DNA from: Paracoccaceae bacterium
Lineage (GTDB): Bacteria > Pseudomonadota > Alphaproteobacteria > Rhodobacterales > Rhodobacteraceae
Assembly: GCA_007116575.1 (NCBI GenBank)
Contig: SKIF01000130.1
Coordinates: 1 to 41,947 of the forward strand
Direction: 5' to 3'
DNA: 41,947 nt
Shown here: positions 5,158 through 39,668 of the stretch, piece after piece
Layout of the letters: every line of letters begins with the position of its first letter
How positions within the stretch are numbered: position 1 is the stretch's first letter
The notes under the pieces: generated by a model
What the model was told of the DNA's origin: nothing
Databases searched by the model: none
The model's input: the letters and a program-made list of their open reading frames with translations, nothing else
Translations under genes and position numbers: made by a program

Positions 5158-5173
5158 TCGCTGCACGGCGCGC

Positions 5174-7081
5174 TTATGTGGTTGTCTGCCAGACAACACC
5201 AGCGGGCGGGATTGTCAGCCCGTCCCAGATTATCGGCTCGGTGCCGTGATTGAACCAGAAACGTCGCTGCCCTGACTCGCGCGTTCGCAGGGCCGCTGGC
5301 AGATGTAGCGTCTCAATTCCCCGCGCCGCGCACAGGCCGCGCAGAAGCTCCTGCAGGCTGGCCGCGTCCGGCCACCCGGCCAGATAGGCCAGCCGGTCGT
5401 CGCCCACCATTGCCGGTTGACCATCGGCGCGGCGCAGGATGACTGGTGCCGTGGTCTCAAGGTCTTCGGCCCAGTGCAGGAAATGCCCGCCCCCTTCCAG
5501 CGCCACGCGTGCCCCCGGCGGCAGACTTTCCACCCGCGTCACCCGTGCATCAAGCCCTGGCAGATCAGGCGGAAGCTGCGCGGGGATCGCGAAACCCGGG
5601 GTCTTGGAATTGCTGCGCGGGCCTAGCAGTATCGTTCCCGGGCAGGTGGCCAGCGCCGCGCGCAACTTCGGCGAGAGCGAGAACAGCCCCGGCATGAGCA
5701 CGATCTGCCATGCCGAGAGGTCGATCGCATCGGGCGGCAGGATGTCGATATTCAGGCCCAGATGACGCAGCGCGCGATACCATTCAAAGACCAGCCGGAA
5801 ATAGTCGAAATCCGCCCCTTGCGGCTGTGTCTCCCAGGCCCAGGCGCTTTCATAGTCGAAAACCAGTGCCACATCACCGGGGCGGCTGGCCACCTCCGCC
5901 GCCTCGGGTAATTCGCGCGCGACGGCGGCGGCCTCGGCCAGTCCCGGGGCGGGCGCGCTGTCGGGGCGCAACAGGCCTGCGTGCATCTGTTCCTGCGCGA
6001 AAGGGGCCTGCCGCCAGCGGAAATAGCACACGGCCTCGGCCCCGTGGGCAAAGGCTTCCCATGTCCAGAACCGTACCATACCTGGCAGAGGTGCCGGGTT
6101 GAATGGCGCCCAGTTCACCGGCCCCGGCTGCTGTTCCATCACCCACCAGCGCCCCCGACCGACAGCACGATAGAGGTCATGGTGAAAGGCCTGAAAATCC
6201 GGATCGCCCTGCCGCAGGAACGCGGCCTTGTGCGCCGCGCTGGCCTCTAGGCGGTCGGAGAGGAAACCCAGCGGGTAGCTGTCCCAGCTTGCGATATCCA
6301 GATCAGCCCCGACCTTGTAGTGGTCAAACTCGGTGATCCGGCCCATGTAGTTATGCGCAATCGGCGCGTGCGAATGGCGGCGGATGATCTCGACCTGCGC
6401 GCGGTTGAATGCCACCACCTGTTCGCTGGCAAAGCGCCGGAAATCCATGACATGCGCCGGATTGGGTTCGGTCACGGTCAGGTTGGGCAGGTCGATCTCG
6501 TCGAAACTGGCATAATCCATCGACCAGAAGACATTGCCCCAGGCGCGGTTGAGCGCGTCAGGGCTCTGGTATTTCTGCGCAAGCCAGTCGCGAAAGGCAT
6601 CCCGCGCGGCCTCGGAATAGCTCAGGATCGTGTCATGGCAGCCATATTCATTATCGGTCTGCCATGCGGCAATATGGGGGTTCTGCCCGTAGCGCTTCGC
6701 CAGCAGAGTGACGATGCGACGGCACTCATCCAGATAGCCGCGATGGCTGAAGCAGTAATGCCTGCGCGAGCCGAACCCGCGCTGACGGCCAAGGGCATCG
6801 ACCGCCAGCATGTCGGGGTGGCGCTTGATCATCCAGCGCGGTGGCGTGGCCGTGGGCGTGCCGAGCACCACCTTCAGTCCCGCGCGCCCCAGCACCTTGA
6901 TCGCGCGGTCGAGCCAGTCGAACTCCAGCCTGTCGGGGGCAGGTTCCAGCCGCGACCATGCAAACTCGCCGATCCGCACCCATGACAGCCCCGCTTCGAC
7001 CATGCGGGCGGCATCCTCGGGCCAGATTTCCTCGGGCCAGTGTTCGGGATAGTAGCAGACCCCCAGACCGCGCTGCATCAC
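5174..7081 (-). CDS. GH42 beta-galactosidase
   Basis: 635 residues, normal for GH42. The N-terminal TIM barrel opens with GVCYYPEHWPEEIW. The acid/base is E145 in QTDNEYGCHD and the nucleophile E316 in WWVMEQQPGPVNW, followed by a trimerisation domain (VALVFDYESAW) and a C-terminal beta domain. It has no signal peptide, so it is cytoplasmic and acts on imported beta-galactosides such as lactose or galacto-oligosaccharides to release galactose. It is the last gene of the minus-strand galactoside operon; its start (7081) overlaps the lactonase stop by 4 bp (ATGA). The gene converges with the hybrid kinase with only 16 bp between the ends. Exact substrate within GH42 is not decidable by eye. Confidence 0.93.
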   Translation of the reverse strand: MMQRGLGVCYYPEHWPEEIWPEDAARMVEAGLSWVRIGEFAWSRLEPAPDRLEFDWLDRAIKVLGRAGLKVVLGTPTATPPRWMIKRHPDMLAVDALGRQRGFGSRRHYCFSHRGYLDECRRIVTLLAKRYGQNPHIAAWQTDNEYGCHDTILSYSEAARDAFRDWLAQKYQSPDALNRAWGNVFWSMDYASFDEIDLPNLTVTEPNPAHVMDFRRFASEQVVAFNRAQVEIIRRHSHAPIAHNYMGRITEFDHYKVGADLDIASWDSYPLGFLSDRLEASAAHKAAFLRQGDPDFQAFHHDLYRAVGRGRWWVMEQQPGPVNWAPFNPAPLPGMVRFWTWEAFAHGAEAVCYFRWRQAPFAQEQMHAGLLRPDSAPAPGLAEAAAVARELPEAAEVASRPGDVALVFDYESAWAWETQPQGADFDYFRLVFEWYRALRHLGLNIDILPPDAIDLSAWQIVLMPGLFSLSPKLRAALATCPGTILLGPRSNSKTPGFAIPAQLPPDLPGLDARVTRVESLPPGARVALEGGGHFLHWAEDLETTAPVILRRADGQPAMVGDDRLAYLAGWPDAASLQELLRGLCAARGIETLHLPAALRTRESGQRRFWFNHGTEPIIWDGLTIPPAGVVWQTTT

Positions 7082-22267: not shown

Positions 22268-22969
22268 TCAGGCGCGCGTGTGCAACCGGTAGCCGGCATG
22301 AAAGACAAGCCGGACAGAGGTAATCATCTGTCTGCCATTGCGCGTCGTGCGATCCAGAGCAAGCAATCCCGCGCCCGCTGAGCAGCCCAGAATGAACGCC
22401 TCCTGCGTGCTGGCAGAGATGGCAGAGAGGGCGAAATCACCGCCATCAAAGGCCACTTCGCGCACCAGCCATTCATTCGGGCTCATCGTGTCGAACCGGG
22501 CCTCTTGCGCGGCAGGCACCGCGCGCGTGTTGACCCAGCGCGTTTCGAAGACATAAGGCATGTGATTGGCCATGTAGAGGGTCTGCAGATAGAGGATCGG
22601 CGCATCCTCCCCGATTTGCAGCCTGGCCTGGATGTCGGGCGGCGGTGGTCGCATCTCGCGCGTCAGAATACGGAAATCGAACCGCTCCCCCCGGTTCTCG
22701 ATTTCCTCGCGGATCAGCGGGATGCTGAATTCGGCGCGTCGTATGGGGTTGAGCGCGACACGGGTGCCCGCCTTGCGCCGACGCTCCAGCAATCCGGCAT
22801 CGGCAAGCCCGCGCAGCGCGCGGTTCACGGTCGCACGCGCGCAGCCCAGTTCCTGCGCCAGGTCGGCCTCATGGGGGATCTGGTCGCCCGGTTTCCAGAT
22901 GCGCTGGCGGATCCGCTGGCGCACGATTTCCTGCACCGCCTGCCAGGAAAGGCGCGCATCGCCGGTCAC
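22268..22969 (-). CDS. hutC: GntR/HutC-family repressor of histidine utilisation
   Basis: 233 residues if started at the GTG at 22969, which overlaps the hutF stop as GTGA. The frame extends to 23071, but that part lies inside hutF and is not family-like. An N-terminal winged helix (VRQRIRQRIWKPGDQIPHEADLAQELGCARATVNRALRGL) is followed by the UTRA effector domain (ILYLQTLYMANHMPYVFETRWVN; SISASTQEA-like region). HutC family members bind urocanate and repress hut genes. Position directly behind hutF, and a GntR-type palindrome in the hutF-hutI gap, support the assignment. Confidence 0.9.
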   Translation of the reverse strand: MTGDARLSWQAVQEIVRQRIRQRIWKPGDQIPHEADLAQELGCARATVNRALRGLADAGLLERRRKAGTRVALNPIRRAEFSIPLIREEIENRGERFDFRILTREMRPPPPDIQARLQIGEDAPILYLQTLYMANHMPYVFETRWVNTRAVPAAQEARFDTMSPNEWLVREVAFDGGDFALSAISASTQEAFILGCSAGAGLLALDRTTRNGRQMITSVRLVFHAGYRLHTRA

Positions 22970-24327
22970 AAGACCTGCCCCAACTCGGCCATCACCTTGC
23001 GATAGGCCGCAACGATCTCGCCGCGGCGGATATGCTGCCCCTCCCTGACCACATGCCGCCCGGCGGACCACAGGTCCTGCACCATCCTGTCATCACCGGC
23101 AAAGATGTAGCTGTCCAGAAGCGTATCGCCCTGTCTGCCAGTCAGATCGATTGATGAATTGTCCAGCGTCATCAGATCTGCCCAGGCACCGGTTGCGATT
23201 CTGCCGCTGGCCCGCCCCGCAGCATGCGCCCCACCCCGCGCCGCCGCTTCGAACAGGTGGCGACCAGTTGACTGCGCCTGCGTAGCCAGCACGGCGCGCG
23301 ATTTGTCGCGCAGACGTTGCGAATATTCAAGCGTGCGCAATTCCTCGGCCAGCGCGATGCGGATATGCGAATCCGACCCGATGGCAATCTGTCCCCCGGC
23401 ATCGAACCACCGCACCGCGTCGAAAATGCCGTCCCCGAGGCTCGACTCGGTGATCGGGCAGAGACCGGCAATGGCCCCCGACCGCGCCAGCGCCTCGGTT
23501 TCGTGCGGCTGCATCTGGGTGCAGTGAATCAGGGTCACACGTGGCCCGAGCGCCATGTTTTCCAGCACCCATTCCACCGGGCGCTTGCCCAGTGCGGCGC
23601 GAACCTCATCTACCTCTGCCACCTGTTCGGCAAGGTGCATATGCACTGGCCCGTCGGTTAGCGCCGCGGTCCGGGCGAGGGATTCCGGGCTGACTGCGCG
23701 TAGGCTGTGGGGGGCCACGCCCAACTGGCAATCGGCGGGCAGGCCCGACACTGTGCTTTTGGCACCTTCATAGAGGCGCGCGAACCGGTCGGGGTCATTG
23801 CCGAAACGGATCTGACCGGGGTCGAGCGGACGGCCATCCAACCCGCCAAACTGGTAGTGCACAGGCAGAAGGGTCAGCCCGATCCCGCTTCGCGCCGCCG
23901 CCGCGCCGATGCGCAGGCTCATTTCAGCCAGATCGTCATAGGGCGCGCCGCCCGGCTGATGATGCAGGTAGTGAAACTCGACGCTGGCGGCATAGCCTGC
24001 CTCTAGCATCTCCATCTGTACAAGAGCGGCGATGGCCTCGACATGTTCGGGCGTCAGGTGGTCGAGAAAGCGGAACATCAGCTTGCGCCAGGTCCAGAAA
24101 CTGTCGCGCGGGTCGGGGCCGCGCCGCTCGGTCAGTCCGGCCATGGCGCGTTGAAACGCATGGCCATGTGCGTTGGCGGGCGCGGGCAGAAGAATGCCCA
24201 CCACATGCGCGCTTGATTTCGGTGCGTCGGGCTGCACATGCGCAATTCGCCCATCCGGCCCGACCGAGACCAGAACATCGCGGGCCCAGCCCGACTCAAT
24301 GAGTGCCTGTTCCGCCCAGATTTTCAT
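22966..24327 (-). CDS. hutF: Formimidoylglutamate deiminase
   Basis: 453 residues from the ATG at 24327 (MKIWAEQALIESGWARDV), with AGGA 5-6 nt upstream. The open frame to 24420 crosses the divergent promoter region and was rejected. The amidohydrolase fold shows AHGHAFQRAMAGL (metal histidines), SVEFHYLHHQPGG, HMHLAEQ, IHCTQM and GSDSHIRI, all HutF features. It converts N-formimino-L-glutamate to N-formyl-L-glutamate and ammonia. Together with HutG this defines the five-step hut route instead of the HutE/formiminoglutamase route. Confidence 0.95.
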   Translation of the reverse strand: MKIWAEQALIESGWARDVLVSVGPDGRIAHVQPDAPKSSAHVVGILLPAPANAHGHAFQRAMAGLTERRGPDPRDSFWTWRKLMFRFLDHLTPEHVEAIAALVQMEMLEAGYAASVEFHYLHHQPGGAPYDDLAEMSLRIGAAAARSGIGLTLLPVHYQFGGLDGRPLDPGQIRFGNDPDRFARLYEGAKSTVSGLPADCQLGVAPHSLRAVSPESLARTAALTDGPVHMHLAEQVAEVDEVRAALGKRPVEWVLENMALGPRVTLIHCTQMQPHETEALARSGAIAGLCPITESSLGDGIFDAVRWFDAGGQIAIGSDSHIRIALAEELRTLEYSQRLRDKSRAVLATQAQSTGRHLFEAAARGGAHAAGRASGRIATGAWADLMTLDNSSIDLTGRQGDTLLDSYIFAGDDRMVQDLWSAGRHVVREGQHIRRGEIVAAYRKVMAELGQVL

Positions 24328-24338
24328 GCTGATCCTGC

Positions 24339-24368
24339 TTGACTCATCATTATGTACATACTTATACG
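24339..24368 (+). promoter_or_regulatory. hutI promoter with HutC-type operator in the spacer
   Basis: TTGACT (24339-24344) and TATACG (24363-24368), 18 bp apart, form a plausible promoter reading into hutI. The spacer contains the perfect 10-bp palindrome TATGTACATA (24351-24360), of the TGTAtgTACA class known for HutC operators. A repressor there would occlude hutI transcription and, because the gap to hutF is only 70 bp, probably also hutF-hutC. Binding itself is inferred. Confidence 0.65.
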
Positions 24369-24397
24369 GATTAAACGCAATCTGTTCAAGGTGAATC

Positions 24398-25585
24398 ATG
24401 CGACTCGAAAATGCCACCATCGCGACAATGCATGGCCCCGGCCCCTATGAGCTGATCGCGGGCGGGGTTGTCGTGCTGCGCGGCGCGCTGGTCGCATGGG
24501 TTGGGCTTGCGCAAGACCTGCCCGAAGAGTTCCGCGCCGATGATGCGCTTGATCTGGAGGGTCGTCTGGTCACGCCCGGACTGATCGACTGCCATACCCA
24601 TGTCGTTCATGGCGGCAATCGTGCCCGCGAATTCGAGATGCGGCTTCAGGGGGCCAGTTATGAAGAGGTCGCGCGCGCGGGTGGTGGCATTGTCTCGACC
24701 GTGGCGCAGACGCGCGCCGCCTCGGAAGCAGAGCTTGTCGCCGCTGCCCTGCCGCGTGTCGATGCGCTGCTGGCCGAGGGCGTCACCACGCTGGAAATCA
24801 AGTCCGGCTATGGGCTGGACGTTGAGACCGAATTGCGGATGCTGCGCGCCGCGCGCTGCATCGCCGAATTGCGCCCGGTCGAGGTCAGGACAAGTTTTCT
24901 GGGCGCGCATGCTGTTCCTGCCGGAATCAGCGCCGATGCCTATATCGCCGACACCTGCCTGCCCGCGCTAGAGGCCGCCCATGCCGAGGGGCTGGTCGAT
25001 GCCGTGGACGGGTTCTGCGAGACCATCGCCTTCACGCCCGACCAGATCCGCCGCGTGTTCGAGCGCGCCCGCGCCCTTGGCCTGCCGGTCAAGCTGCACG
25101 CCGAGCAACTCTCGCATCTGGGCGGCGCACGGCTTGCGGCCGAATTCGGCGCGCTTTCGGCGGATCATCTGGAATATGCCGATGCGCAGGATGCCGCCGC
25201 GATGGCCAAGGCGGGCACGGTCGCGGTCATCCTGCCCGGCGCGTTTTATACCCTGCGCGAAACCCAGGCCCCGCCCATCGATGCCTTCCGCAAGCATGGC
25301 GTTGCCATGGCGCTGGCCACCGATTGCAACCCCGGCTCATCGCCGCTGACCTCGCTTCTGCTGACGATGAACATGGGCGCCACGCTGTTTCAAATGACCC
25401 CGGAAGAATGCCTCGCAGGCGTCACTCTGCACGCAGCCCGTGCGTTGGGACTGCGAGACAGGGGGGGCATCTGGCCGGGCGCGCGCGGCGATCTGGCGAT
25501 CTGGGACGTCGAACACCCGTCCGAGCTTTCCTATCGTATCGGTTTCAACCCGCTCTGGAAGCGGGTTCATGGAGGCATGCTGTGA
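24398..25585 (+). CDS. hutI: Imidazolonepropionase
   Basis: 395 residues, typical length, beginning [15 protein letters not shown] with AAGG upstream. The amidohydrolase metal motif is [24 protein letters not shown], a SADHLEYAD segment and [14 protein letters not shown] complete the HutI signature. It hydrolyses 4-imidazolone-5-propionate to formiminoglutamate, the third step. It is first gene of hutIHGU, and its stop overlaps the GTG start of hutH. Confidence 0.96.
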
Positions 25586-27120
25586 CCCTGATCCTGACAC
25601 CCGGCGCTGCCACGCTTGCGCAGCTTGAAGATATCTGGCGCAACGAAACACCCGCGCGCCTGAATGACAGCGCCCGCCCGGCCATCGAGGCCGCCGCGCG
25701 CATGGTGGCCGAGGCGGCGGCGGGCGATGTGGCGATCTACGGGGTCAATACCGGCTTTGGCAAGCTCGCATCGGTGCGGATCGCACCGGGCGATACGGCA
25801 CAACTGCAACGCAACCTGATCCTGAGCCATTGCTGCGGCCTTGGCGAAGCGCTGGACATTGCCACCACGCGGCTGATGATGGTGCTCAAGCTGCTCTCGG
25901 TCGGGCGCGGGGCGTCGGGGCTGCGCGGGGCGACGGTCACGCTGCTCGAGGAATTGCTGGCGCGCGGCGTGACCCCTGTCGTGCCGGTTCAGGGCTCGGT
26001 CGGGGCGTCGGGCGATCTGGCCCCGCTCGCGCATATGGCCGCGACGCTGATCGGCCACGGCGAGGCATTTCTGAATGGCGAAAGGCTGCCATCCTCGGTT
26101 GCGCTCGAGCGCGCGGGCCTCGCGCCAGTGGTGCTGGGACCCAAGGAAGGGCTGGGGCTGATCAATGGCACGCAATTCTCGACCGCCTGCGCGTTGGCGG
26201 GCTGGTTCGAGGCGATGCGCAATGCGCAGGGTGCGATAGCGGTCTCCTGCCTTTCGACCGATGCGATCATGGGCTCGACCGCGCCGCTGCAACCGGCGCT
26301 GCATGCGCTGCGCGGCCAGCGCGGGCAGATCGATGTCGCGCGGGCGATGCGCATGATCATGGACGGATCCGAGATCCGCGAAAGCCATCGCGACAGCGAT
26401 ACGCGCGTGCAGGACCCGTACTGCATCCGCTGCCAGCCGCAGGTGACCGGGGCGGCGCTGGACCTCTTGCGCTTTGCTGGCAGCACGCTCGAGGTCGAGG
26501 CGAACGCGGTCTCGGACAACCCGCTGGTTCTGGTCGAGGAAGGGCAGATCGTCTCGGGCGGGAATTTCCATGCCGAGCCGGTCGCTTTCGCCGCCGACCA
26601 GATCGCGCTTGCTCTGGCCGAAATCGGCGCTGTTGCGCAGCGCCGCGTGGCGCTGATGGTGGACCCCACGCTGAGCCATGACCTGCCCCCTTTCCTGACG
26701 CCCGAGCCGGGGCTGAATTCGGGGCTGATGATTGCCGAGGTGACCTCGGCCGCGCTCATGAGCGAGAACAAGCATCTGGCCAATCCCTGCTCGACCGATT
26801 CCACCCCGACCTCGGCCAATCAGGAAGACCATGTCTCGATGGCCGCGCATGGCGCGCGACGGCTGGCGCGGATGAATGCCAATCTCGGCGGTATCCTCGG
26901 CGTGGAACTGCTCTGCGCCGCGCAAGGCGTCGAATTCCGCGCACCGCTGGCAACTTCGCCCGCGCTGCAACGGCTGCTGGCCCTGACCCGCGCGGCGGTG
27001 CCCGCGCTGAGCGAGGATCGCTACATGGCCGATGACCTTGCCCGCTCAGGCGCCCTGATCCGTAACGGGCAGGTTGCGGCGGCCTGCGATGTGGCGGCGC
27101 TGCTGGAAGCCGCGCCATGA
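25582..27120 (+). CDS. hutH: Histidine ammonia-lyase
   Basis: 512 residues from the GTG at 25582, which overlaps the hutI stop as GTGA and has GGAGG (25571-25575) 6 nt upstream. The frame is open back to 25324, but those codons lie inside hutI. The autocatalytic MIO prosthetic group forms from A142-S143-G144 in [12 protein letters not shown], the same numbering as the Pseudomonas enzyme. [10 protein letters not shown] and the SDNPLV stretch are further signatures. It deaminates L-histidine to urocanate, the committing step. The tetrameric enzyme is cytoplasmic. Confidence 0.97.
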
Positions 27121-27911
27121 CCCCGGTGGAGGTGATCCGGGGCGACGGGCCGGTGGTGCTGGGCATGCCGCATACGGGCACATGGCTGCCCGAGGAGGTG
27201 TTTGCGCGCCTTACCCCGCGCGGGCAGTTGCTGGCCGATACCGACTGGCATATCGACCGGCTCTATGAGGGGCTGCTGCCCGGTGCAACGATAGTGCGCG
27301 CGCATTTCCACCGCTACCTGATCGACGCCAATCGCGACCCCTCGGGGGCAAGCCTCTATCCGGGGCAGAACACCACCGGGCTGGTGCCGCTGACCGATTT
27401 CGATGGCGAACCGATCTGGACCAGCCCGCCCGACGCAGATGAGAACGAGGCCCGCCGCGCAAGCTATCATGCGCCCTATCACGCGGCGCTGGCGGCCGAG
27501 CTGGAACGGGTGCGCGCGCAGCATGGGGTTGCGATCCTTTATGACTGCCATTCGATCCGCAGCCACATCCCGTTCCTGTTCGAGGGTCGTCTTCCGGATT
27601 TCAACATCGGGACCAATGGCGGCACGACCTGTGCGCCGCAGATTGAGGCCGCCGTGCAGGGTATCTGCGCGCAGGCAAAGGGCTTTACCTCGGTGCCCAA
27701 TGGCCGGTTCAAGGGCGGCTGGACAACGCGCCACTACGGAGAGCCCGGAAGCGGCATTCATGCAGTCCAGATGGAGCTTGCACAAAGCACGCATCTGGCC
27801 AGTGAAACGTCCCCCTTCGCCTATGACCCCGGAAAGGCAGACAGATTGCGCCCGATCCTGCGCGACATTCTCGAAACCCTCCAAACCCTCGCCCCAACGC
27901 TGAGAGGCTGA
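27117..27911 (+). CDS. hutG: N-formylglutamate deformylase
   Basis: 264 residues. Family features include [13 protein letters not shown] near the start, [58 protein letters not shown] and a [11 protein letters not shown] stretch. It hydrolyses N-formyl-L-glutamate to glutamate and formate, the last step. ATG overlaps the hutH stop by 4 bp; hutU starts 2 bp after its end. The family is COG3741-type (HutG of the formylglutamate branch), not the arginase-like formiminoglutamase. Confidence 0.95.
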
Positions 27912-27913
27912 TC

Positions 27914-29587
27914 ATGACCAACCCCCGCCACAACCTGCGCGACATCTACCCCCCCACTGGCCCCGAGATCACCGCGAAAAGCTGGCTGACCGAGGCCGCG
28001 ATGCGGATGCTGATGAACAACCTGCACCCCGACGTGGCCGAGAACCCGCATGACCTGGTGGTCTATGGGGGTATTGGCCGCGCGGCGCGCACATGGGATG
28101 ATTTCGACCGCATCGTGGCCGGGCTGAAGGATCTCGAGGCCGACGAGACGCTGATCGTGCAGTCGGGTAAGCCCATCGCAATCATTCGTACCCATGCGGA
28201 TGCCCCGCGCGTGCTGATCGCGAATTCGAACCTCGTGCCGCATTGGGCAACATGGGAGCATTTCAACGAACTCGACCGGCGTGGGCTGATGATGTATGGT
28301 CAGATGACTGCGGGAAGCTGGATCTATATCGGCACGCAGGGCATCGTGCAGGGCACCTACGAGACCTTCGCCGAGGCGGGCCGTCAGCACTATGAGGGCG
28401 ATCTGCGCGGGCGCTGGATTCTGACCGGGGGCCTTGGCGGCATGGGGGGGGCGCAGCCGCTGGCGGCTGTCATGGCCGGAGCCTGCTGTCTGGCCGTCGA
28501 ATGCGACGAGACCCGGGCCGATTTCCGCATCCGCACCCGCTATTGCGACGCCAAGACGCATGATCTGGACGAGGCGCTGGAAATGATCCAGCGCTGGACA
28601 GAGGCGGGCGAGGCCAAATCCGTGGCGCTTATCGGCAATGCCGCCGAGGTCTTCCCCGAAATCTACCGCCGCGGCGTCCGCCCCGATATCGTCACCGACC
28701 AGACCTCGGCGCATGACCCGGTGCATGGTTATCTGCCCACCGGCTGGACCGTCGCCGAGTGGCGCGAAAAGCAGGAAAGCGACCCGAAGGCCGTGGAACA
28801 GGCCGCGCGCGCAAGCATGAAAACTCATGTCGCGGCGATGGTGGATTTCTGGAATGCAGGCGTGCCGACGCTGGACTACGGCAATAACATCCGGCAGGTC
28901 GCGAAGGAGGAGGGTCTGGAAAACGCCTTTGCCTTTCCGGGTTTCGTGCCCGCCTATATCCGGCCGCTCTTCTGCAAGGGCATCGGCCCGTTCCGCTGGT
29001 GCGCGCTCTCGGGCGACCCGGAAGACATCTATAAGACTGATCAGGCCATGCGCAAGTTGTTCCCCGAGAACAACCACCTGCACCGCTGGCTCGACATGGC
29101 GCGCGAACGCATCGCCTTTCAGGGCCTGCCTGCCCGGATCTGCTGGCTGGGTTTGGGGGATCGGCATCGCGCTGGGCTCAGGCTGAATGAAATGGTGGCC
29201 GCGGGTGAATTGAAAGCCCCCATCGTCATCGGGCGTGACCATCTCGACAGCGGCTCGGTTGCCAGCCCCAATCGCGAAACCGAGGCGATGCGTGATGGAT
29301 CAGACGCGGTGTCGGACTGGCCACTGCTGAATGCGCTGATGAACACGGCCTCGGGCGCGACATGGGTCAGCCTGCATCATGGCGGCGGCGTCGGCATGGG
29401 CTTTTCGCAACATTCCGGCGTGGTGATCGTGGCCGATGGTACGCCGGAGGCTGCGAAGAGGCTGGAACGCGTGCTGTGGAACGACCCTGCCTCGGGCGTG
29501 TGGCGGCATGCCGATGCGGGCTATGAGGACGCGCTGCAATGCGCGCGCGATCATGGCCTGCGGTTGCCGGGGATCCTGGGCAACTGA
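27914..29587 (+). CDS. hutU: Urocanate hydratase
   Basis: 557 residues, normal length. Recognisable blocks are [49 protein letters not shown] (NAD+ binding), [19 protein letters not shown] and the C-terminal [19 protein letters not shown]. It adds water to urocanate using a tightly bound NAD+ as electrophile, giving imidazolonepropionate. It is the last gene of the hutIHGU operon. Confidence 0.97.
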
Positions 29588-31106: not shown

Positions 31107-32024
31107 TCAGTCGATCGGCAGGGTATTCGCCTCAGCCGCAGTATTTGCTGTGCTTGCCAGCCAGTCATAGACCAGTCGCGCACGGGGCGATGTCTGGTTG
31201 TGTAGCGTGACATGGAACTCTTCGCGCGGAGCAACCTGATCGGGGTGAAGTGCGACCAGTTGGCCCTTGTCGACAAAGGGCCGCGCGAGCGCCACCCAGC
31301 CCAGCACAGCGCCCATGTCATCGCGGGCGGCCTGCAATGCGATCAAGTAGTTGTTGACCCGGTGGCTCTGTCTTATCGGCCCATGATACCCCAGCGCCCG
31401 GAACCAGCCTTGCCAGTCGGTCCATCCTGTCACGGGCGTATCGAAGTGAATGAGCGGCACAGACGCAAGATCGGCGAGGGTGGCGAACCGATGGCTGCGG
31501 AAAAACGCCGGACTGCCAAGCGCCATCAACTGATCACGAAACAAGACCCGGGTAGAAGCCCCGTCCCGCGGCAGGATGCCGTAGCGAATGCTCAGGTCGC
31601 ATTCGGTCGGCGTCTCGCCTGTATCGCTGACGATCTGTGCGACCGATACATCGCTGTGGGTCTTCCAGAATTCCGCCAGTCTTGGGGTCAGCCAGAGTGA
31701 ACTCACTGCTGTCGTGACCCCGATCGTGACCGAGGCCGTGCTCGCGCGGTGGCGCAACTGGGCGGTGGCATCGGCCATGCATTCGAACCCGCGTTGCAGC
31801 GCGACCAGTAAATAGGCGCCAGTTTCCGTTAGGGTGACGCCGCGGTGATGGCGTCGGAACAGGTTGCATTCCAGTTCAGCTTCCAGCGCCTTGACCTGAT
31901 GGCTGATCGCGGCAGGTGTGACGTTCAACTCCTGTGCGGCCTGCGTGAAGCTGACATGTCGCGCGGCAGTCTCGAAGGCGACCAAGGCGCTCATGGGCGG
32001 CAGATCATAAGGGCGCTTGGACAA
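31107..32024 (-). CDS. LysR-family regulator (GcvA-like), divergent from the betaine cluster
   Basis: 305 residues. The N-terminal HTH reads SALVAFETAARHVSFTQAAQ followed by ELNVTPAAISHQVKALEAEL, and the effector domain follows (VTIGVTTAVSSLWLTPRL; LSIRYG). The 'P-P-M-S-A-L-V-A-F-E-A-A-A-R' type opening and 'AISHQVK' are typical of the GcvA subgroup. It is divergent from the mttB-like operon with 179 bp between the start codons, so it is the probable activator of that operon. The inducer is unknown. Confidence 0.92.
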   Translation of the reverse strand: MSKRPYDLPPMSALVAFETAARHVSFTQAAQELNVTPAAISHQVKALEAELECNLFRRHHRGVTLTETGAYLLVALQRGFECMADATAQLRHRASTASVTIGVTTAVSSLWLTPRLAEFWKTHSDVSVAQIVSDTGETPTECDLSIRYGILPRDGASTRVLFRDQLMALGSPAFFRSHRFATLADLASVPLIHFDTPVTGWTDWQGWFRALGYHGPIRQSHRVNNYLIALQAARDDMGAVLGWVALARPFVDKGQLVALHPDQVAPREEFHVTLHNQTSPRARLVYDWLASTANTAAEANTLPID

Positions 32025-32203
32025 GGTGACTTCACTTCATGGCAGGAGGAGTGCCTCAGAATAACGTAATTCACAGGTTTTGCATAAGCTGAAATAAGCC
32101 AACATGAATATTTCCGTGATTGCTGCAAGCATCGCAATGCCGCAGGATTGTCATGCAGGGTCGGGCAAGGTCCTTCCTGCGTTGCTCTATCGGAGAACAT
32201 GAC

Positions 32204-33796
32204 ATGGTGATCGACTCGCTGATCCCCGACGAGGCCCCCCGTACAGGCGCTGAACGGCGCAGCCGCAAAGGGCGCGCGAGGCAATCACGCAATCCCGAGC
32301 CCGGGCAGAACCTGCATCTGCGCACACCCTTCATCACCCGGCGTATTCCGACCTATGACCTTCTGGGCGAGGAGGCTTTAGCGCGGATCGAGGCGACCGC
32401 CGAGCGGATACTCGCGGAAATCGGGATCGAGCTGCGCGACGATCCCGAGGCGATGGCGCTCTACAACCGAGCAGGCGCGCAGGTCAGCCATGTTTCGGGC
32501 GAGACATGGCGCATCCGGTTCGAGCCGGGGATGCTGCGCGAGGTGCTGCGCACGGCACCTGCGCGCTTCACCCAACACGCGCGCAACCCGGCCAACACGG
32601 TCGAGATCGGCGGCGATGCCATGGTCTTCGCGCCCGCCTATGGCTCTCCCTTCGTGATGGATCTGGATCAGGGTCGGCGCTACGGCACGATTGCCGATTT
32701 CGAGAACCTGATCCGGCTGGCGCAATCCTCACCCTGGCTGCATCATTCCGGCGGCACGATCTGCGAGCCGACCGACGTGGCCGTGAACAAGCGCCATCTG
32801 GACATGGTTCATGCACATATGCGGCTTTCGGACCGTGCCTTTCTGGGGTCGATCACCGCACCGGAGCGCGCCGCCGATTCTATCGAAATGTGCCGCATCC
32901 TGTTCGGCGCGGAGTTCGTGGACCGAAACTGCGTCATCATGGGCAATTTCAACACCACGTCGCCCTTGGTGCTGGACGGGGTGACGACGGCGGGTATCCG
33001 CACCTATGCGAGCGCCGGGCAGGGCTCGATCCATTTGCCATTTCTGCTGGGCGGGGCGGTTGCACCCCTGACAATGCCGGGAGCGTTGGCGCAATGCCTG
33101 GCGGAAACCATGGCGTCCAGCGCGCTGACACAGCTTGTCCGCCCCGGCGCGCCGGTGGTGCTGGGGGCGTTCCTGTCGTCGATGTCCTTGCGCACCGGCT
33201 CGCCCACTTTTGGCACGCCCGAGCCCGCGCTGGCCTCGCTGGTGATGGGCCAGCTTGCACGGCGGCTGAACCTGCCCTTGCGCTGTGCAGGCAATTTCGC
33301 CACCTCGAAAGCGCCCGACGGGCAGGCGATGCAGCAGGCGATGATGTCGATGATGTCGGCCATTCAGGGCGGTGCGAATTTCATCCTGCACGCGGCGGGT
33401 TTTGTCGACGGGCTGTTGTCGATGTCCTATGAGAAGATGATCATGGACATGGATATGTGCGGCGCGCTTCATGCCTATCTGGCAGGGCTGGACGTGACCG
33501 AAGAGACACTGGCCTTCGAGGCACTGGCGCAAAACGGCCCCGGCGAGCATCTGTTCGGCACTGACCACACGCTGCGTCATTATGAAACCGCCTATTGGGA
33601 CAGCGGCTTCAACGACGATCGCACCTATGAAACATGGTCCGAGTCGGGCAGTGTGGACGCCGCGCAGCGCGCCAACCAACGGTGGAAGGACATTCTGGCG
33701 CGCTATCAACCACCACCAATGGATGTGGGGGTGGCTGAGGCGCTGAAAGACTACGTCGCACGCCGGAAGGCCGAAATGCCCGATGCGTGGTATTGA
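32204..33796 (+). CDS. MttB-family (non-pyrrolysine) trimethylamine/betaine methyltransferase
   Basis: 530 residues from the ATG at 32204, preceded by GGAGA (32192-32196) at 7 nt; an open frame to 32120 lacks such a site. The C-terminal two thirds match the TIM-barrel MttB superfamily: IEATAERILAEIGIELRDDPEA, HHSGGTICEPTDVAVNKRHLDM, GNFNTTSPLVLDGV, RPGAPVVLGAFLSSMSLRTG, GANFILHAAGFVDG and a C-terminal WKDILARYQPPPMD segment. There is no in-frame amber codon, so it belongs to the pyrrolysine-free branch that includes glycine-betaine (MtgB) and proline-betaine (MtpB) methyltransferases. The true partner, a corrinoid protein or another acceptor, is not encoded nearby. Confidence 0.88.
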   Translation: MVIDSLIPDEAPRTGAERRSRKGRARQSRNPEPGQNLHLRTPFITRRIPTYDLLGEEALARIEATAERILAEIGIELRDDPEAMALYNRAGAQVSHVSGETWRIRFEPGMLREVLRTAPARFTQHARNPANTVEIGGDAMVFAPAYGSPFVMDLDQGRRYGTIADFENLIRLAQSSPWLHHSGGTICEPTDVAVNKRHLDMVHAHMRLSDRAFLGSITAPERAADSIEMCRILFGAEFVDRNCVIMGNFNTTSPLVLDGVTTAGIRTYASAGQGSIHLPFLLGGAVAPLTMPGALAQCLAETMASSALTQLVRPGAPVVLGAFLSSMSLRTGSPTFGTPEPALASLVMGQLARRLNLPLRCAGNFATSKAPDGQAMQQAMMSMMSAIQGGANFILHAAGFVDGLLSMSYEKMIMDMDMCGALHAYLAGLDVTEETLAFEALAQNGPGEHLFGTDHTLRHYETAYWDSGFNDDRTYETWSESGSVDAAQRANQRWKDILARYQPPPMDVGVAEALKDYVARRKAEMPDAWY

Positions 33797-33882
33797 CGCC
33801 TATTGGCGTTTTCCATTTTGTGTCGCAATTTCGAACCGAAAAAGTCAGGCAGCTTTTTCTGAAGTTGCTTTATGGAGGGACC

Positions 33883-35928
33883 ATGTCGAACGATCCGCTC
33901 TTGCAGCCATACCAGTTGAAGCACCTGACCCTGCGCAACCGGATCATGACCACCGCGCATGAGCCGGCATATCCTGAAGACGGCATGCCCAAGGCGCGCT
34001 ATGTCGCCTATCACACTGAGCGCGCGAAAGCAGGGGTGGCGCTGGCGATGACCGCAGGATCGGCGGCGGTGTCGCGCGACAGCCCGCCGGTCTTCAACAA
34101 TATCCTTGCCTGGAAAGACGAGGTCGTCCCCCATATCCGTGCGCTCACCGATGCCTGCCATGAGCATGGCTGCGCAGTGATGATCCAGTTGACGCATCTG
34201 GGGCGGCGCACGGGCTGGAACAAGGGCGACTGGCTGCCCTCGCTTTCGTCCAGCAAGCACCGCGAACCCGCGCACCGGGCCTTTCCGAAGCTGGCCGAGG
34301 ATTGGGATATCGAGCGGATCATCACAGATTTTGCCGATGCGACCGAGCGAATGCAAGCGGGCGGCATGGACGGGGTGGAGTTGCAAGTCTATGGCCATCT
34401 GCTCGATCAGTTCTGGTCACCCCTGACCAATGATCTCGACGGGCCCTATGGCGGCGAAAGCCTTGAGACGCGGATGCAGCTTCTCATGGATGTGCTGCGC
34501 GGTATCCGGGCGAGGGTCGGGGATGGGTTCATTGTGGGGGTGCGCTATACCGCCGATGAGGTGGCGAAAGGAGGGATCGACGCCGCCGAGGGGCTGGAGA
34601 TCTCCAAGCGCCTGGCCGATTGCGGGATGGTCGATTTCCTCAATGTCATTCGCGGGCGCATCCATACCGACCCCGCCATGACCGATGTCATCCCGGTGCA
34701 GGGCATGGCCTATGCCCCGCATCTGGATTTCGCGGGTGCCGTGCGCGCCGCGACCGGCATGCCCACCTTCCACGCAGCCCGCATCCCCGATGTGGCGACC
34801 GCGCGCCATGCGGTGGCATCGGGCCTCTTGGACATGGTCGGCATGACCCGCGCGCATATGGCCGACCCGCATATCGTGCAGAAGATCCGCGAGGGGCGCG
34901 AGGACGACATCCGCCCCTGTGTGGGGGCCACCTATTGTCTTGACCGCATCTATCAGGCAGGCGAGGCGCTGTGCATCCACAACGCCGCCACGGGGCGTGA
35001 GTTGTCCTTGCCGCATGAAGTCGCGCCTGCGGATGCGTGCAAACGGGTGGTGGTGGTCGGCGCCGGCCCCGCCGGGCTGGAAGCCGCGCGCGTCGCCGCC
35101 GAGCGCGGGCATGATGTGACCGTATTCGAGGCCCAGCCCGACCCCGGCGGCCAGATCCGCCTGACCGCGCAGAATCCCCGGCGGCGCGAGATGATCGGCA
35201 TCATCGACTGGCGCATGGCCCAATGCGCCGCGCGCGATGTCGCTTTCTATTTCAATACATTCGCCGAGGCCGAAGACGTGACCGCGCTGGAGCCGGATGT
35301 CGTGATCGTGGCTACGGGCGGTCTGCCCAACACTGAACTGTTCGAAACCGGCGCGGAGAACCCGCATGTCGTCAGCGCTTGGGACATCATCGCAGGCGAT
35401 GTGAAACCCGCCGCAAATGTGCTGGTCTATGACGAGGCGGGCGATCATCCCGGCCTGATGGCCGCCGAAGTGGCCACCAAGGCGGGCTCGCAGGTCGAGG
35501 TGATGACCCCCGACCGCAGCTTTGCGCCCGAGATCATGGGCATGAACCTTGTCCCTTACATGCGCGCGCTGCAGGACAAGGATGTCACTTTCACTGTCAC
35601 CCGCCGCCTGCTGGACGTGGCGCGCGACGGCAACCGGCTGTGCGCCACCATCGGCACCGATTACAGCGACCACACCACCACCCGGCATTATGATCAGGTG
35701 GTGGTGAATTACGGCACCATGCCGCTGGATGATCTGTATTATGCCCTCAAGCCGTTTTCGGTGAATATGGGTGCTGTCGATTACGACGCGCTGATTGCAG
35801 GCCGCCCTCAGCAGGTGATGCGTAACCCTGATGGCGGCTTTCAGCTTTTCCGCATTGGTGATGCCGTAAGCGCGCGAAACACCCACGCCGCGATCCATGA
35901 CGCGCTCAGGCTGATGAAGGATATCTGA
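33883..35928 (+). CDS. TMADH/dienoyl-CoA-reductase-like flavoenzyme with incomplete Fe-S cysteine set
   Basis: 681 residues from the ATG at 33883, which has GGAGGG (33874-33879) before it; the frame is open to 33787. The N-terminal FMN barrel (old-yellow-enzyme type) runs to about 330. The linker normally binds a [4Fe-4S] cluster, but here it reads C346-VG-A349-TY-C352-...-C364, so the second ligand is alanine. An FAD/NAD(P)-binding half follows ([21 protein letters not shown] at about 390). Relatives oxidatively demethylate trimethylamine, dimethylamine or N-methylproline (StcD type). Demethylation of an N-methylated amine released by the MttB step is the likely role. The stop overlaps the next gene by 1 bp (TGATG). 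Confidence 0.85.
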   Translation: MSNDPLLQPYQLKHLTLRNRIMTTAHEPAYPEDGMPKARYVAYHTERAKAGVALAMTAGSAAVSRDSPPVFNNILAWKDEVVPHIRALTDACHEHGCAVMIQLTHLGRRTGWNKGDWLPSLSSSKHREPAHRAFPKLAEDWDIERIITDFADATERMQAGGMDGVELQVYGHLLDQFWSPLTNDLDGPYGGESLETRMQLLMDVLRGIRARVGDGFIVGVRYTADEVAKGGIDAAEGLEISKRLADCGMVDFLNVIRGRIHTDPAMTDVIPVQGMAYAPHLDFAGAVRAATGMPTFHAARIPDVATARHAVASGLLDMVGMTRAHMADPHIVQKIREGREDDIRPCVGATYCLDRIYQAGEALCIHNAATGRELSLPHEVAPADACKRVVVVGAGPAGLEAARVAAERGHDVTVFEAQPDPGGQIRLTAQNPRRREMIGIIDWRMAQCAARDVAFYFNTFAEAEDVTALEPDVVIVATGGLPNTELFETGAENPHVVSAWDIIAGDVKPAANVLVYDEAGDHPGLMAAEVATKAGSQVEVMTPDRSFAPEIMGMNLVPYMRALQDKDVTFTVTRRLLDVARDGNRLCATIGTDYSDHTTTRHYDQVVVNYGTMPLDDLYYALKPFSVNMGAVDYDALIAGRPQQVMRNPDGGFQLFRIGDAVSARNTHAAIHDALRLMKDI

Positions 35929-36659
35929 TGCGCATCGGGGTGATTGGCACCGGTGTGATTGCAACCGCACTGGTGCGTGGGCTGGCGGGGCAGGGGCATG
36001 TCATCACCGTCTCGCAGCGCAGCGCCGCCAATTCCGCTACGCTGGCGCGCGACATCCCCGAGGTGTCGGTGGCTGAGAATCAGGCGGTTCTCGATGCCAG
36101 CGACGTGGTGTTTCTGGGGCTGATGGCCGAGGCCGCGCCGTCTGTTCTGGGCGCGCTGCAATTCCGGCCTGATCAGCAGGTGATTTCGCTGATGGCCGGG
36201 GCGACGCTGGCGCAGATCGCGCCCATGGTGGCTCCTGCCTGCGCCGTGGCACTGATGCTGCCTTATCCCGGTATCGCGCATGGCGGCTCGCCGGTTCTGG
36301 CGCTGGGCGATCCCGCGCTGATCGAAACCTTTTTCGCGCCGCGCAACCCGGTTTTCCGACTGAAGGACGAGGCCGAGCTTTCGGCCTATCTTTGCGCGCA
36401 GGCGGTGTTGTCGCCGGTGGCGCAGATGGTGGCCGATGCGTCGGACTGGCTGGGCCGACGCGCCGATGAGCCCGTTCAGGGCGAGGCGTTCCTGCGCGCG
36501 CTTGTGGCGTCGAATCTGTCGGTGGGGTCTGCCGGGGCACTGGTTGAGGCACTCAATACCGAAGGCGGCTACAATCAACGTCTGCGCGTGCATTTAGAAA
36601 GGGCCGGTCTCAGGGCCGCGCTGGCACAGGGGTTGGATAAGCTGGAGCGCCCGCAATGA
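35928..36659 (+). CDS. ProC-like NAD(P)-dependent reductase
   Basis: 243 residues, shorter than classical pyrroline-5-carboxylate reductase (about 270). The Rossmann motif MRIGVIGTGVIATALVRGL opens the protein, with VFLGLMAE and ISLMAGATLAQI where ProC has 'VVLAVKP' and 'ISIxAGV'. The C-terminal helical part is consistent with the ProC dimerisation domain but divergent. It overlaps both neighbours (1 bp and 4 bp), so it is fully coupled with the two flavoenzymes. It could reduce an imine such as pyrroline-carboxylate in this pathway, or oxidise an N-methylated amino acid; this is inferred. Confidence 0.75.
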   Translation: MRIGVIGTGVIATALVRGLAGQGHVITVSQRSAANSATLARDIPEVSVAENQAVLDASDVVFLGLMAEAAPSVLGALQFRPDQQVISLMAGATLAQIAPMVAPACAVALMLPYPGIAHGGSPVLALGDPALIETFFAPRNPVFRLKDEAELSAYLCAQAVLSPVAQMVADASDWLGRRADEPVQGEAFLRALVASNLSVGSAGALVEALNTEGGYNQRLRVHLERAGLRAALAQGLDKLERPQ

Positions 36660-38635
36660 GCTTAAAACACGTTTTCACGCCGATCACGCTGCGCAACAAG
36701 ACCCTGCGCAACCGAATCGTATTCGGCGCACATACCACCAACATGGCCGAGGGTGGCCTGCCTGGTGACCGGCATCTGGGCTATTATCTGGAACGCGCGC
36801 GCGGCGGTGCGGCCATGATCACGGTCGAGCCAATGCCGGTGCATCCCGCCGCTGTGCTGACGCGCGGCAATTTCCGCCCCGGCTGCGACAGCGTAATTGC
36901 GCCTTTCCAGCGCTTGACCGACGCCTGCAAGGCCGAAGGCGCGGTGATGATCCAGCAGCTTTACCATGTCGGCGCGCATGGCGACTGGGACAATAGCTGG
37001 CACGCGCACTGGTCGCCCTCGGGCGGGCCAAGCTATCACGACCATGATGGCAGCCACGCCATGACCGAGGCCGAGATCAGCGAGACCATCGACGGTTTCG
37101 TGCAGGCTGCGCTGCGCTGCCAGAAGGCAGGCTTTGACGGGGTCGAGGTCTGGGCGGCCTATCACAGCCTGCTTGACCAGTTCTGGACGCCCTTTTCCAA
37201 CCAGCGCGCGGACCAGTGGGGCGGGTCGCTGGAAAACCGCACGCGGCTGTCGCGCGAGATCCTGCGCCGCATCCGCGCGGCCTGTGGTGAAGATTTCATC
37301 ATCGGGTTGTCGGTCTCCGAGGATCTGGAAAGCGCGGTGCTGCCCGACCGCGACGAGATGCTGCGCATCATTGCTCTGCATGATGCCGAGGCGCTGATGG
37401 ATTATGTCACCGTCGGCGCGGGCAGTTACATTGCCTTTCAGAAGATCATCCCCAGTTTCCAGTTCGCCGAGAATCTGGGCGTCGATCTGGCGGCGGCGCT
37501 GAAAGCATCCGGGCTGAAGGCGCGCGTCATCGCTGAAGCGGGCATCCGGACGCCAGAGAATGCCAACACCGTGCTGGGCGCCGGTCAGGCCGATCTGGTG
37601 GCCATTGTGCGCGGCCAGATCGCTGACCCGCATCTGGTGGCCAAGGCGCAGGACGGCCGCCTTGAGGATATCCGCGGCTGCCTGTCCTGCAATCAGCAAT
37701 GCTGGGGGCGGCGCGGGCGCGACTATTACATCTCTTGCCTGATCAACCCGTCGGTCGGGCATGAACACCTATGGGGCGGGGGGCGGGTCTCTCCGACCAA
37801 AACCCCGCAGCGCGTGCTGGTGGTCGGTGGTGGCCCCGCCGGGCTGGAGGCTGCCCGTGTGGCCGCCGAGCGCGGCCATGACGTCATCCTCGCCGAGGCC
37901 GCGCCGCATCTGGGCGGGGCGCTCCGTCTGGCCGGGCTGCAACCGCGCCGCGCCCAGATCCTTGATCTGATCGACTGGTATGAACGCCAGTTGAACAAGC
38001 TCGGGGTCGATATCCGGCTGAACACCTTTATGGAGGCAGAGGAAATCGCTGCGATGGATGACGCGCGCGTGGTTCTGGCCACAGGTGCGCTGCCCGATGC
38101 CACTGGCTTTCAGAGAGCGTTGCCTCATATTGCCAGCCTGCCCGGTGCGGATCGCAGCAATGTGGCCACGGTCGAGGATGTGATGTCACGCGCCATGCGA
38201 CCCGGCAGCAATGTGGTTCTGCTGGATGAAGGCGGGCACTGGCGCGGGATCGGCACGGCCTGGCATCTGGCGGCAGCGGGCCATTGCGTCACTCTTGTTA
38301 CGCCCGATGCGATGGTCGCACAGGCGCTTGCGCGCATGGCCTCGGATGGAACAGCGCGGGCGGAACTTGCGCGGCTGGGGGTGCGTTTCGTCACCGAACA
38401 TGCGATAACCGAATGGACTGGCGAGGCCGCGCGCTGCTACTCGCTCCTTACAGGTGCCGAACAAGAGATCGCTGCAGACACGCTTGTTCTGGCGACCGGC
38501 AGCAGGACCGATGACATATTGGCCGATGAGTTGCGCGCGCTTGGCCTTGCGCCGCTGGTAATTGGCGATGCTTTGGCCCCCCGTCAGGCCGCGGCGTCCA
38601 TCCGTGACGGACTGTATTTGATGAAGGATATCTGA
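36656..38635 (+). CDS. TMADH/dienoyl-CoA-reductase-like flavoenzyme with intact Fe-S site
   Basis: 659 residues. The FMN barrel ([41 protein letters not shown]) is followed by C342-LS-C345-NQQ-C349-...-C361, the complete C-x2-C-x3-C-x11-C ligand set for a [4Fe-4S] cluster. The C-terminal FAD/NAD(P) half has [23 protein letters not shown]. It is clearly a paralogue of the enzyme two genes upstream, with the same domain order and the same C-terminal ending YLMKDI/RLMKDI. It starts inside the ProC-like gene (ATGA overlap) and ends 1 bp before the racemase-family gene. A second N-demethylation or an enoate reduction is the likely role. Confidence 0.86.
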
Positions 38636-38636
38636 G

Positions 38637-39668
38637 ATGCGCAGCAAGACCTGTATCCATGTAGTCTCGTGCCATGCCGAAGGGGAAGTGGGCGATGTCA
38701 TCGTGGGCGGGGTTGCCCCGCCACCGGGCAAGACGATCTGGGAACAGCGCAACTGGATCGCGCAGGACGACAGATTGCGCAACTTCATGTTGAACGAGCC
38801 GCGCGGCGGCGTGTTCCGGCATGTCAACCTGCTGGTCCCGCCGAAACACCCCGAGGCCGCTATGGGCTGGATCATCATGGAGCCCGAGGACACCCCGCCC
38901 ATGTCAGGCTCGAACTCGATTTGCGTGGCCACCGTGCTGCTGGAAACCGGAATCGTGCCGATGGTGGAGCCTGTGACCGAGTTGACACTGGAAGCCCCGG
39001 GCGGGCTGGTGCGGGTGCGCGCCGAGTGCCGCGACGGCAAGGTCAGCCGGGTCAGTGTCCAGAACCTCCCCTCATTCGCGCAGCATCTGGGCGCGACGCT
39101 TGAGGTTGCGGGGCTGGGCACCCTGCAGGTCGATACCGCTTTCGGGGGCGACAGCTTCGTGCTGGTGGATGCGTCTGCGCTGGGTTTTGAACTGCGCCCA
39201 GATGAAGCCGCCGAACTGGCCGGGCTGGGTGTGCGCATCACCAATGCTGCGACCGAGCAACTGGGATTCACTCACCCCAACAACCCCGACTGGCGGCATA
39301 TCAGCTTTTGCGGTTTCACTACCCCGGTCACGGATGGCCAGACCCGCCATGCCGTTGCCATTCAGCCCGGCAAGATCGACCGCTCGCCGACAGGCACTTG
39401 CGTTTCGGCGCGCCTCGCAGTGCTGGCAGCTCGCGGGCAGTTGGGGGTGGGCGACGGGTTGCTGTGCCGGTCAATCATCGGCAGCCGTTTTGACGGGCGC
39501 ATCGTACAGGAATGCGAGCTTGACGGTGTGCCTGCCATCATTCCCGAGATCAGCGGGCGAGCATGGATCACCGGGACGCATCAGCACATGCTGGACCCCG
39601 AAGATCCCTGGCCAGAGGGCTACCGTATCGGTGATACATGGCCGCAAAGTTGGAGTGCCCCCCTCTGA
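38637..39668 (+). CDS. Proline-racemase-family protein with Ser/Thr in place of the catalytic Cys pair
   Basis: 343 residues of the proline racemase / 4-hydroxyproline epimerase / trans-3-hydroxyproline dehydratase superfamily. The first catalytic motif, normally M-C-G-H-N-S-I, reads M-S90-G-S92-N-S-I. The second, normally D-R-S-P-C-G-T, reads D248-R-S-P-T252-G-T-C. Known activities use Cys/Cys (racemase, epimerase), Ser/Cys (some epimerases) or Cys/Thr (dehydratase); Ser/Thr matches none of these. It is the last gene of the LysR-flanked operon and starts 1 bp after the flavoenzyme stop. A dehydratase- or lyase-type reaction on a hydroxyproline-like amino acid is the most sensible guess. Confidence 0.85.

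Follow-up and report, generated by a model that had tools for sequence, protein, structure and literature searches.

A LysR-flanked operon predicted to break down a proline-type betaine in a Rhodobacteraceae bacterium

Introduction

What compound might a bacterium degrade with an operon that sets a methyltransferase of the MttB superfamily beside two flavoenzymes, a ProC-like reductase and a racemase-family protein? The question is raised by a locus in a stretch of 41,947 nucleotides (the window) from a Paracoccaceae bacterium, a relative of soda-lake Rhodobacteraceae. The window is the whole of one contig (SKIF01000130.1, C66) of a 2.65-Mb draft genome (GCA_007116575.1) with a completeness of 87%.

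Proline-type betaines serve as osmolytes. The aerobic breakdown of these compounds, as far as it is known, begins with an O2-using Rieske enzyme: in the stachydrine/hydroxyproline-betaine pathway the Rieske protein Stc2/HpbB acts together with StcD/HpbA. Hydroxyproline betaine is mentioned in the passages of PMC4113996 cited here, and the role of StcD in those of PMC12239276. We argue that the locus is probably a catabolic operon under LysR control that degrades a proline-type betaine, and most likely a 3-hydroxylated form as well; its reaction steps are predicted from homology and gene neighbourhood.

Results

Five genes, the last four coupled, divergent from a LysR gene

Open reading frames and profile scans place a LysR gene on the minus strand, divergent from five plus-strand genes, for MttB, a first flavoenzyme (OYE1), the ProC-like protein, a second flavoenzyme (OYE2) and a member of the 3-hydroxyproline dehydratase family (T3HD):

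31107..32024, minus strand: LysR-family regulator, GcvA-like (PF03466/PF00126, LysR_substrate/HTH_1)
32025..32203, no strand: divergent intergenic region of 179 bp, predicted operator/promoter (script)
32204..33796, plus strand: MttB-superfamily methyltransferase, predicted quaternary-amine:corrinoid type (PF06253, 721 bits)
33883..35928, plus strand: OYE1, flavoenzyme, HpbA/StcD-type N-methylproline demethylase (72.5% to annotated HpbA)
35928..36659, plus strand: ProC-like protein, predicted to be an NAD(P)H-dependent imine reductase (P5CR fold by AlphaFold/Foldseek, loop motif)
36656..38635, plus strand: OYE2, second Fe-S flavoenzyme (PF00724/PF07992; alignment to 1ps9)
38637..39668, plus strand: T3HD, 3-hydroxyproline dehydratase family, PF05544 (NF047722, 620.9 bits; 4k7g relative; motif)

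MttB and OYE1 likely start at the ATG codons at 32204 and 33883, each with a GGAG upstream, and with these starts the two genes lie 86 bp apart. Base 35928 belongs both to the stop of OYE1 and to the start of the ProC-like gene, the ProC-like and OYE2 genes overlap by 4 bp (36656-36659), and a 1-bp gap at 38636 separates OYE2 from T3HD. In the window none of the five frames is interrupted or truncated. An earlier reading made from the letters alone (the sequence-only reading) had described five same-strand genes divergent from LysR with the last four coupled, and this layout is borne out by the reading frames, the profile scans and the junctions. The intergenic region holds a single weak LysR-box-like T-N11-A, at 32124 (script). 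In near kin, LysR homologues with 57-90% identity hold the same divergent position beside MttB; at other loci a TetR or another LysR is found.

A conserved core of methyltransferase and N-methylproline demethylase

One indication of the substrate class is OYE1. Profile scans find the domains Oxidored_FMN and Pyr_redox in this protein, and likewise in OYE2. In a translated search of plasmids OYE1 is 72.5% identical, at 100% coverage, to a protein of Paracoccus aestuarii labelled 'N-methyl-L-proline N-demethylase HpbA' (the label is the record's own annotation), and ~72% identical to Sinorhizobium pSymB-type replicons. S. meliloti pSymB bears stcD, encoding N-methylproline demethylase, according to the passages cited from PMC12239276; we infer that the Sinorhizobium matches, under which no feature is listed, are StcD itself. 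The cysteine motif C-x-G-[AT]-[TN]-[YF]-C is present in 76 of 76 OYE1 sequences (the window plus relatives with at least 60% identity and at least 80% coverage). Set against the pattern of a TMADH-type 4Fe-4S site, this motif is one cysteine short.

The MttB protein scores 721 bits against PF06253 (cut-off 25), and its frame, of 558 residues, has no internal stop and so is without an in-frame amber/pyrrolysine codon. It falls under the cut-off of TIGR02369 (242.5 against 525); relatives in the PDB are 4yyc, 2qne and 9yce. A genome scan returned 151 relatives, of which the best 80 were kept, and at each locus we recorded the next family gene, meaning one on the same strand, downstream and within 1.5 kb of MttB. 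This gene is OYE1 in 42 of the 80, a frequency that marks the arrangement as more than chance. Of the remainder, 29 have no family gene, five end too soon (contig ends), two have OYE2 first, one has ProC first and one another MttB; some of the 29 have OYE1 near and otherwise placed, on the opposite strand (L028), upstream (L032) or 1.6 kb downstream (L058). On the MttB tree the MttB–OYE1 pairs span Rhodobacterales, Kiloniellales and Gammaproteobacteria.

One clade of 28 rows on the same tree is without the pairing, OYE1 not being next in 25 and the contig ending in three. It lies within L040-L082, comprises close MttB homologues from Defluviimonas, Gemmobacter, Tabrizicola and others, and mostly has a different divergent LysR (~31%) with no OYE1 directly next. 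A gap of 1.4 kb separates MttB from OYE1 in three Kiloniella loci (L036, L039, L046); the only one of the three gaps that was scanned holds an enolase-superfamily gene (L036:11564-12748), perhaps a betaine epimerase.

If MttB is a quaternary-amine:corrinoid methyltransferase, where is the corrinoid protein? The sequence-only reading saw none in the window and proposed a search of the rest of the genome, and that search was successful: an MtgC-like corrinoid protein is encoded on contig C131, adjoining a homocysteine methyltransferase, and an MtgD-like methyl-acceptor protein on C50. The idea of an organism without any corrinoid protein is rejected accordingly. Both Pfam B12-binding domains of the MtgC-like protein are above cut-off, and the protein is under the cut-off of every NCBIfam model that it matched; the MtgD-like protein passes NF005719 with 400 bits against 259. 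A MetF-like gene beside MtgD was considered, and the assignment was dropped because neither Pfam nor NCBIfam gave a match. The window genome encodes two further MttB genes. In Ruegeria pomeroyi, as described in the cited passages of PMC12478193, MtgC and MtgD are encoded apart, act in trans, are essential for glycine betaine demethylation and are common to methionine synthesis; in Eubacterium limosum a single corrinoid protein serves several MttB-family enzymes (passages cited from PMC8604678). We attribute the absence of a corrinoid partner from the window to the encoding of the MtgC-like and MtgD-like proteins elsewhere in the genome, as in R. pomeroyi.

OYE1 also occurs with a different partner. 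On a Roseivivax plasmid the genes that come after an OYE1 homologue are for a Rieske oxygenase and then a reductase. This Rieske protein scores 509 bits to PDB 3vca/4qup, which we take to be the stachydrine demethylase Stc2; its best match is 3n0q, at 556.5. Matches to the Rieske protein were found in 85 of 394 family genomes, and among the 30 best Rieske loci drawn from these, 11 have an OYE1 homologue of more than 55% identity within the flank of ~1.5 kb. The two kinds of locus together indicate that the partner of OYE1 can be a Rieske oxygenase or MttB. Among the 394 genomes just one more, G179, is of the same genus. It has the order TetR–OYE1–Rieske–reductase, and neither the MttB clade (E 1e-200) nor the ProC-like protein (1e-10) nor the dehydratase (1e-90) was matched in it; in the window genome no Stc2-like Rieske was found at a limit of 1e-100. 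OYE1 of G179 is 70% identical to that of the window, below the 73-95% of MttB-linked OYE1s, suggesting that cassettes were exchanged whole and not gene by gene.

Relatives and neighbourhoods together give good support to a core of MttB and an HpbA/StcD-type demethylase that would act on a proline-type betaine.

A dehydratase, a ProC-like reductase and a second flavoenzyme

The last gene had been read as a member of the racemase family. The family stands (PF05544, 446 bits), and within it the protein belongs to the dehydratases, passing the curated model NF047722 (620.9 bits; cut-off 550). It is a close relative of PDB 4k7g, titled '3-hydroxyproline dehydratse', and its motifs MSGSNS and DRSPTGT form the Ser/Thr pair as defined in the cited passages of PMC4113996. 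Proline racemase and 4-hydroxyproline epimerase were considered and rejected, both scores being below cut-off (247.3 against 556 and 207.9 against 376). The other PF05544 protein of the genome, encoded on C111, does reach the threshold for 4-hydroxyproline epimerase, with 599.6 against 376. It lies in a separate 4-hydroxyproline cluster (L150:382-4925) of epimerase, D-amino-acid-dehydrogenase-like and DapA-like genes.

The set OYE1-T3HD-ProC recurs, in orders unlike that of the window, on pSMR1-6 and pSMR1-3 (two plasmids of one Pseudosulfitobacter strain, with OYE2 following in one) and in L099; in L107 and L130 it is accompanied by MttB and OYE2. On pSMR1-3 an S-(hydroxymethyl)glutathione dehydrogenase comes after OYE1–T3HD–ProC, which fits the release of formaldehyde. 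The T3HD homologue of L130 (8752-9765) is 77% identical to that of the window and has Ser/Cys in place of Ser/Thr; its reaction may be epimerisation.

The ProC-like protein has an N-terminal F420_oxidored domain with weak ProC-family matches (profile scan). Its description as a ProC-like reductase by the sequence-only reading holds for the fold: the AlphaFold model, of low confidence in its C-terminal part, shows a P5CR fold, with its best Foldseek matches in 2ahr and PYCR1 (E 2.2e-13). It does not extend to membership of the known models, for the protein misses the cut-off of every ProC/P5CR model that it matched (TIGR00112, 44.7 against 196.75; NF005063, 134 against 254). The loop reads TEGGYN in the window protein, where the ProC of the same genome (L144) has SPGGTT, a type of loop that we take to be the ProC active-site loop, and [GD]G[YFL]N is present in 54 of 54 ProC-like sequences. 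The ProC-like proteins appear, on their sequences, to be a family of reductases with an altered active-site loop.

The cysteines of OYE2 are spaced C-x2-C-x3-C-x11-C, as in the 2,4-dienoyl-CoA reductase 1ps9 (alignment), a spacing different from that of TMADH-type Fe-S sites. Among the NCBIfam models shown OYE2 passes no cut-off (best 25 of 57). The sequence-only reading had seen two TMADH-like flavoenzymes and assigned the second demethylation to a flavoenzyme; this is supported for OYE1, in the form of an HpbA-like enzyme, and no evidence was found that OYE2 demethylates.

How general is the hydroxyproline branch?

We compared 40 ProC-like neighbourhoods (the best 39 of 84 places outside the window, plus one weaker), regarding genes as chained where gaps were under 400 bp. 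OYE1 is chained with the ProC-like gene in 23, of which 19 are without a dehydratase and four with one; OYE2 comes directly after the ProC-like gene in 13. These counts speak for a rival reading in which the operon acts on plain proline betaine. Here MttB and OYE1 would suffice to give proline, the ProC-like protein and OYE2 would be an accessory pair making and re-reducing a cyclic imine (for example, recovering L-proline from D-proline or from N-methylproline oxidised in error), and the dehydratase would be an occasional passenger for free 3-hydroxyproline. The same reading is favored by 28 of the 80 MttB loci, at least four of them at contig ends, in which MttB and OYE1 stand without a further family gene.

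A further point in its favor comes from the distribution of the dehydratase over genomes. Of the 19 genomes whose OYE1–ProC lacks a neighbouring dehydratase, six encode one elsewhere, against a background of 96 of 358 (p = 0.61); counting weaker dehydratase homologues the figures are 8 of 19 and 103 of 358 (p = 0.30). As there is no clear excess, the ProC-like enzyme probably has another source of imine, or another job. Overall, 18 of 36 genomes with a ProC-like protein have a dehydratase, the background being 96 of 358 (p = 0.006); with weaker homologues the two figures become 21 of 36 and 103 of 358. This co-occurrence is not used as support, because the excess in the 19 genomes is not significant. 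The counts rest on genomes with a ProC match of at least ~190 bits (36 of the 79 matched) and on those with a dehydratase match of at least ~60% identity (114 of the 124 matched); of the ten weaker dehydratase genomes dropped, three (G186, G200, G208) have a ProC-like protein. Genomes with a lone ProC-like gene (n = 10) have a dehydratase in six (p = 0.03).

Against plain proline betaine stand the recurrence of OYE1-T3HD-ProC on several replicons and genomes amid different genes, and the position of the window T3HD, which begins 1 bp past the OYE2 stop. We regard this reading as rather unlikely.

The preferred reading, a betaine operon with a 3-hydroxyproline branch, has to contend with the two null comparisons above and with a number of further observations that weigh against it. 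The dehydratase is contiguous with the ProC-like gene in just six of the 40 regions, in L123 as two short pieces (apparently broken) and in L130 with Ser/Cys. In 15 regions the ProC-like gene stands alone, no family gene lying closer than 400 bp. In two of these 15 a more distant ProC-like protein (41-43%) is near a PF05544-family gene, with a DapA-like gene in the one checked. A conserved five-gene order, named as a check by the sequence-only reading, was not seen: the exact order of the window is found at none of the loci examined, and all five genes occur together in two of the 40 regions (L107 and L130), in the order MttB–OYE1–T3HD–ProC–OYE2. In the near kin L005 the ProC-like gene is lost and a broken fusion (4802-6531) of an OYE2 N-part with a T3HD C-part carries stops in all three forward frames; other close kin have ProC only (L012) or a 63-residue OYE2 match only (L016).

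Other reductases are also at hand. An ornithine-cyclodeaminase-family gene is near the set on pSMR1-6, and both PF02423 (three genes) and PF02615 (one gene) are represented in the window genome; the ornithine-cyclodeaminase family supplies the usual pyrroline-2-carboxylate reductases in the cited passages of PMC4113996, which also describe cluster 3, the origin of the Ser/Thr structure, as functionally mixed. A RamA-type reductive activase (PF14574) gave no hits in the window genome, at its 87% completeness. The Kiloniella enolase was rejected as HpbD: its likeness to 2pmq and 4h2h, which we take to be HpbD structures, is too weak. Mutual exclusion of the MttB clade (n = 44, at least 68% identity) and the Rieske oxygenase (n = 85) was not seen in the 394 genomes, where nine of the 44 share both, at chance level (p = 1).

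The 3-hydroxyproline branch is likely a part of this operon and not general. The sequence-only reading had proposed a pathway for a proline-type betaine in which MttB and then a flavoenzyme are followed by a (hydroxy)proline branch. Relatives and neighbourhoods support this proposal in part: they speak for the core and for such a branch, and the branch is weakened by the many ProC-like genes that lack a dehydratase.

Two rivals are left. The operon might act on a different quaternary amine (glycine betaine, pipecolate betaine, carnitine), its demethylases having no more than the look of proline enzymes. The MttB superfamily spans many substrates (cited passages of PMC8604678), and during growth of R. 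pomeroyi on glycine betaine and related compounds two pfam06253 proteins were more abundant (cited passages of PMC12478193). This reading is made improbable by an OYE1 more than 70% identical to annotated HpbA, by OYE1 homologues that elsewhere pair with a Rieske protein close to 3vca/4qup, and by a dehydratase that is by family a hydroxyproline enzyme. That ProC-OYE2-T3HD is a decaying, non-functional tail, as the remnants in L005, L012 and L016 would have it, is scarcely credible given that the window's five frames are open and full length and that the set recurs in other genomes.

Elsewhere in the window, positions 22966-29587 hold histidine-utilisation genes: HutF/HutI-like amidohydrolases, a HutH-like open reading frame (by eye), an N-formylglutamate amidohydrolase and a urocanase.

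Discussion

In the pathway that we propose, MttB would transfer one N-methyl of the betaine to the Co(I) corrinoid protein MtgC, encoded elsewhere, and MtgD would hand it on to tetrahydrofolate, with no O2 consumed. OYE1 would then take off the remaining N-methyl oxidatively, as formaldehyde, to leave proline or hydroxyproline. For the hydroxylated substrate, the dehydratase would turn trans-3-hydroxy-L-proline into pyrroline-2-carboxylate, which the ProC-like enzyme would reduce to L-proline. OYE2 may act on the hydroxylated substrate as another N-demethylase, or it may be a ring oxidase/ene-reductase that works alongside the ProC-like protein. The first two steps would be the widely conserved core, the last two, together with OYE2, a dispensable module gained and lost.

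Taken at its fullest, this would be a complete O2-independent route for trans-3-hydroxy-L-proline betaine in Alphaproteobacteria, with a B12-dependent first demethylation, a flavin-dependent second, a dehydration step, and a final reduction in which a further pyrroline-2-carboxylate reductase family (ProC fold, GG[YFL]N loop) forms proline. It would be an alternative to the Rieske route seen in one genome of the same genus. We put this complete version forward tentatively, as a possibility that falls short of an even chance.

The components are of known kinds, and their combination appears to be new: no description of MttB with an N-methylproline demethylase and a 3-hydroxyproline dehydratase was found among the papers listed in searches of an open-licence library. 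The operon shares with the stachydrine/hydroxyproline-betaine pathway an N-methylproline demethylase of the same family and a downstream hydroxyproline branch. It differs in that MttB replaces the Rieske oxygenase and its reductase, and in that the 3-hydroxyproline dehydratase is inside the operon, with the 4-hydroxyproline epimerase cluster elsewhere in the genome. By description it resembles MtpB, the proline-betaine methyltransferase of E. limosum, which is a pyrrolysine-free MttB relative with a shared corrinoid protein encoded apart (cited passages of PMC8604678); MtpB is from a gut acetogen, whereas here the host belongs to the Pseudomonadota and the demethylated product is predicted to go on to a flavoenzyme. 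The MtgBCD glycine-betaine system of R. pomeroyi likewise has an MttB-family enzyme, and its MtgC and MtgD, which also serve methionine synthesis, are encoded apart; here a different substrate is predicted. The same source suggests further methylated substrates from up to seven pfam06253 reading frames, and an operon of the window type is not named in the passages cited (PMC12478193). Dehydratase pathways with OCD (ornithine-cyclodeaminase-family) or MLD2 reductases have the same dehydratase family and the same predicted end product, whereas here a ProC-like reductase takes their place and is joined to betaine demethylation.

The analysis draws attention to a family of ProC-like reductases in which the active-site loop is altered, and offers a candidate substrate for one of the many pfam06253 genes in marine and soda-lake bacteria. 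If the first step is indeed B12-dependent, then betaine turnover would be tied to cobalamin, folate and methionine metabolism, and the step could run at low oxygen.

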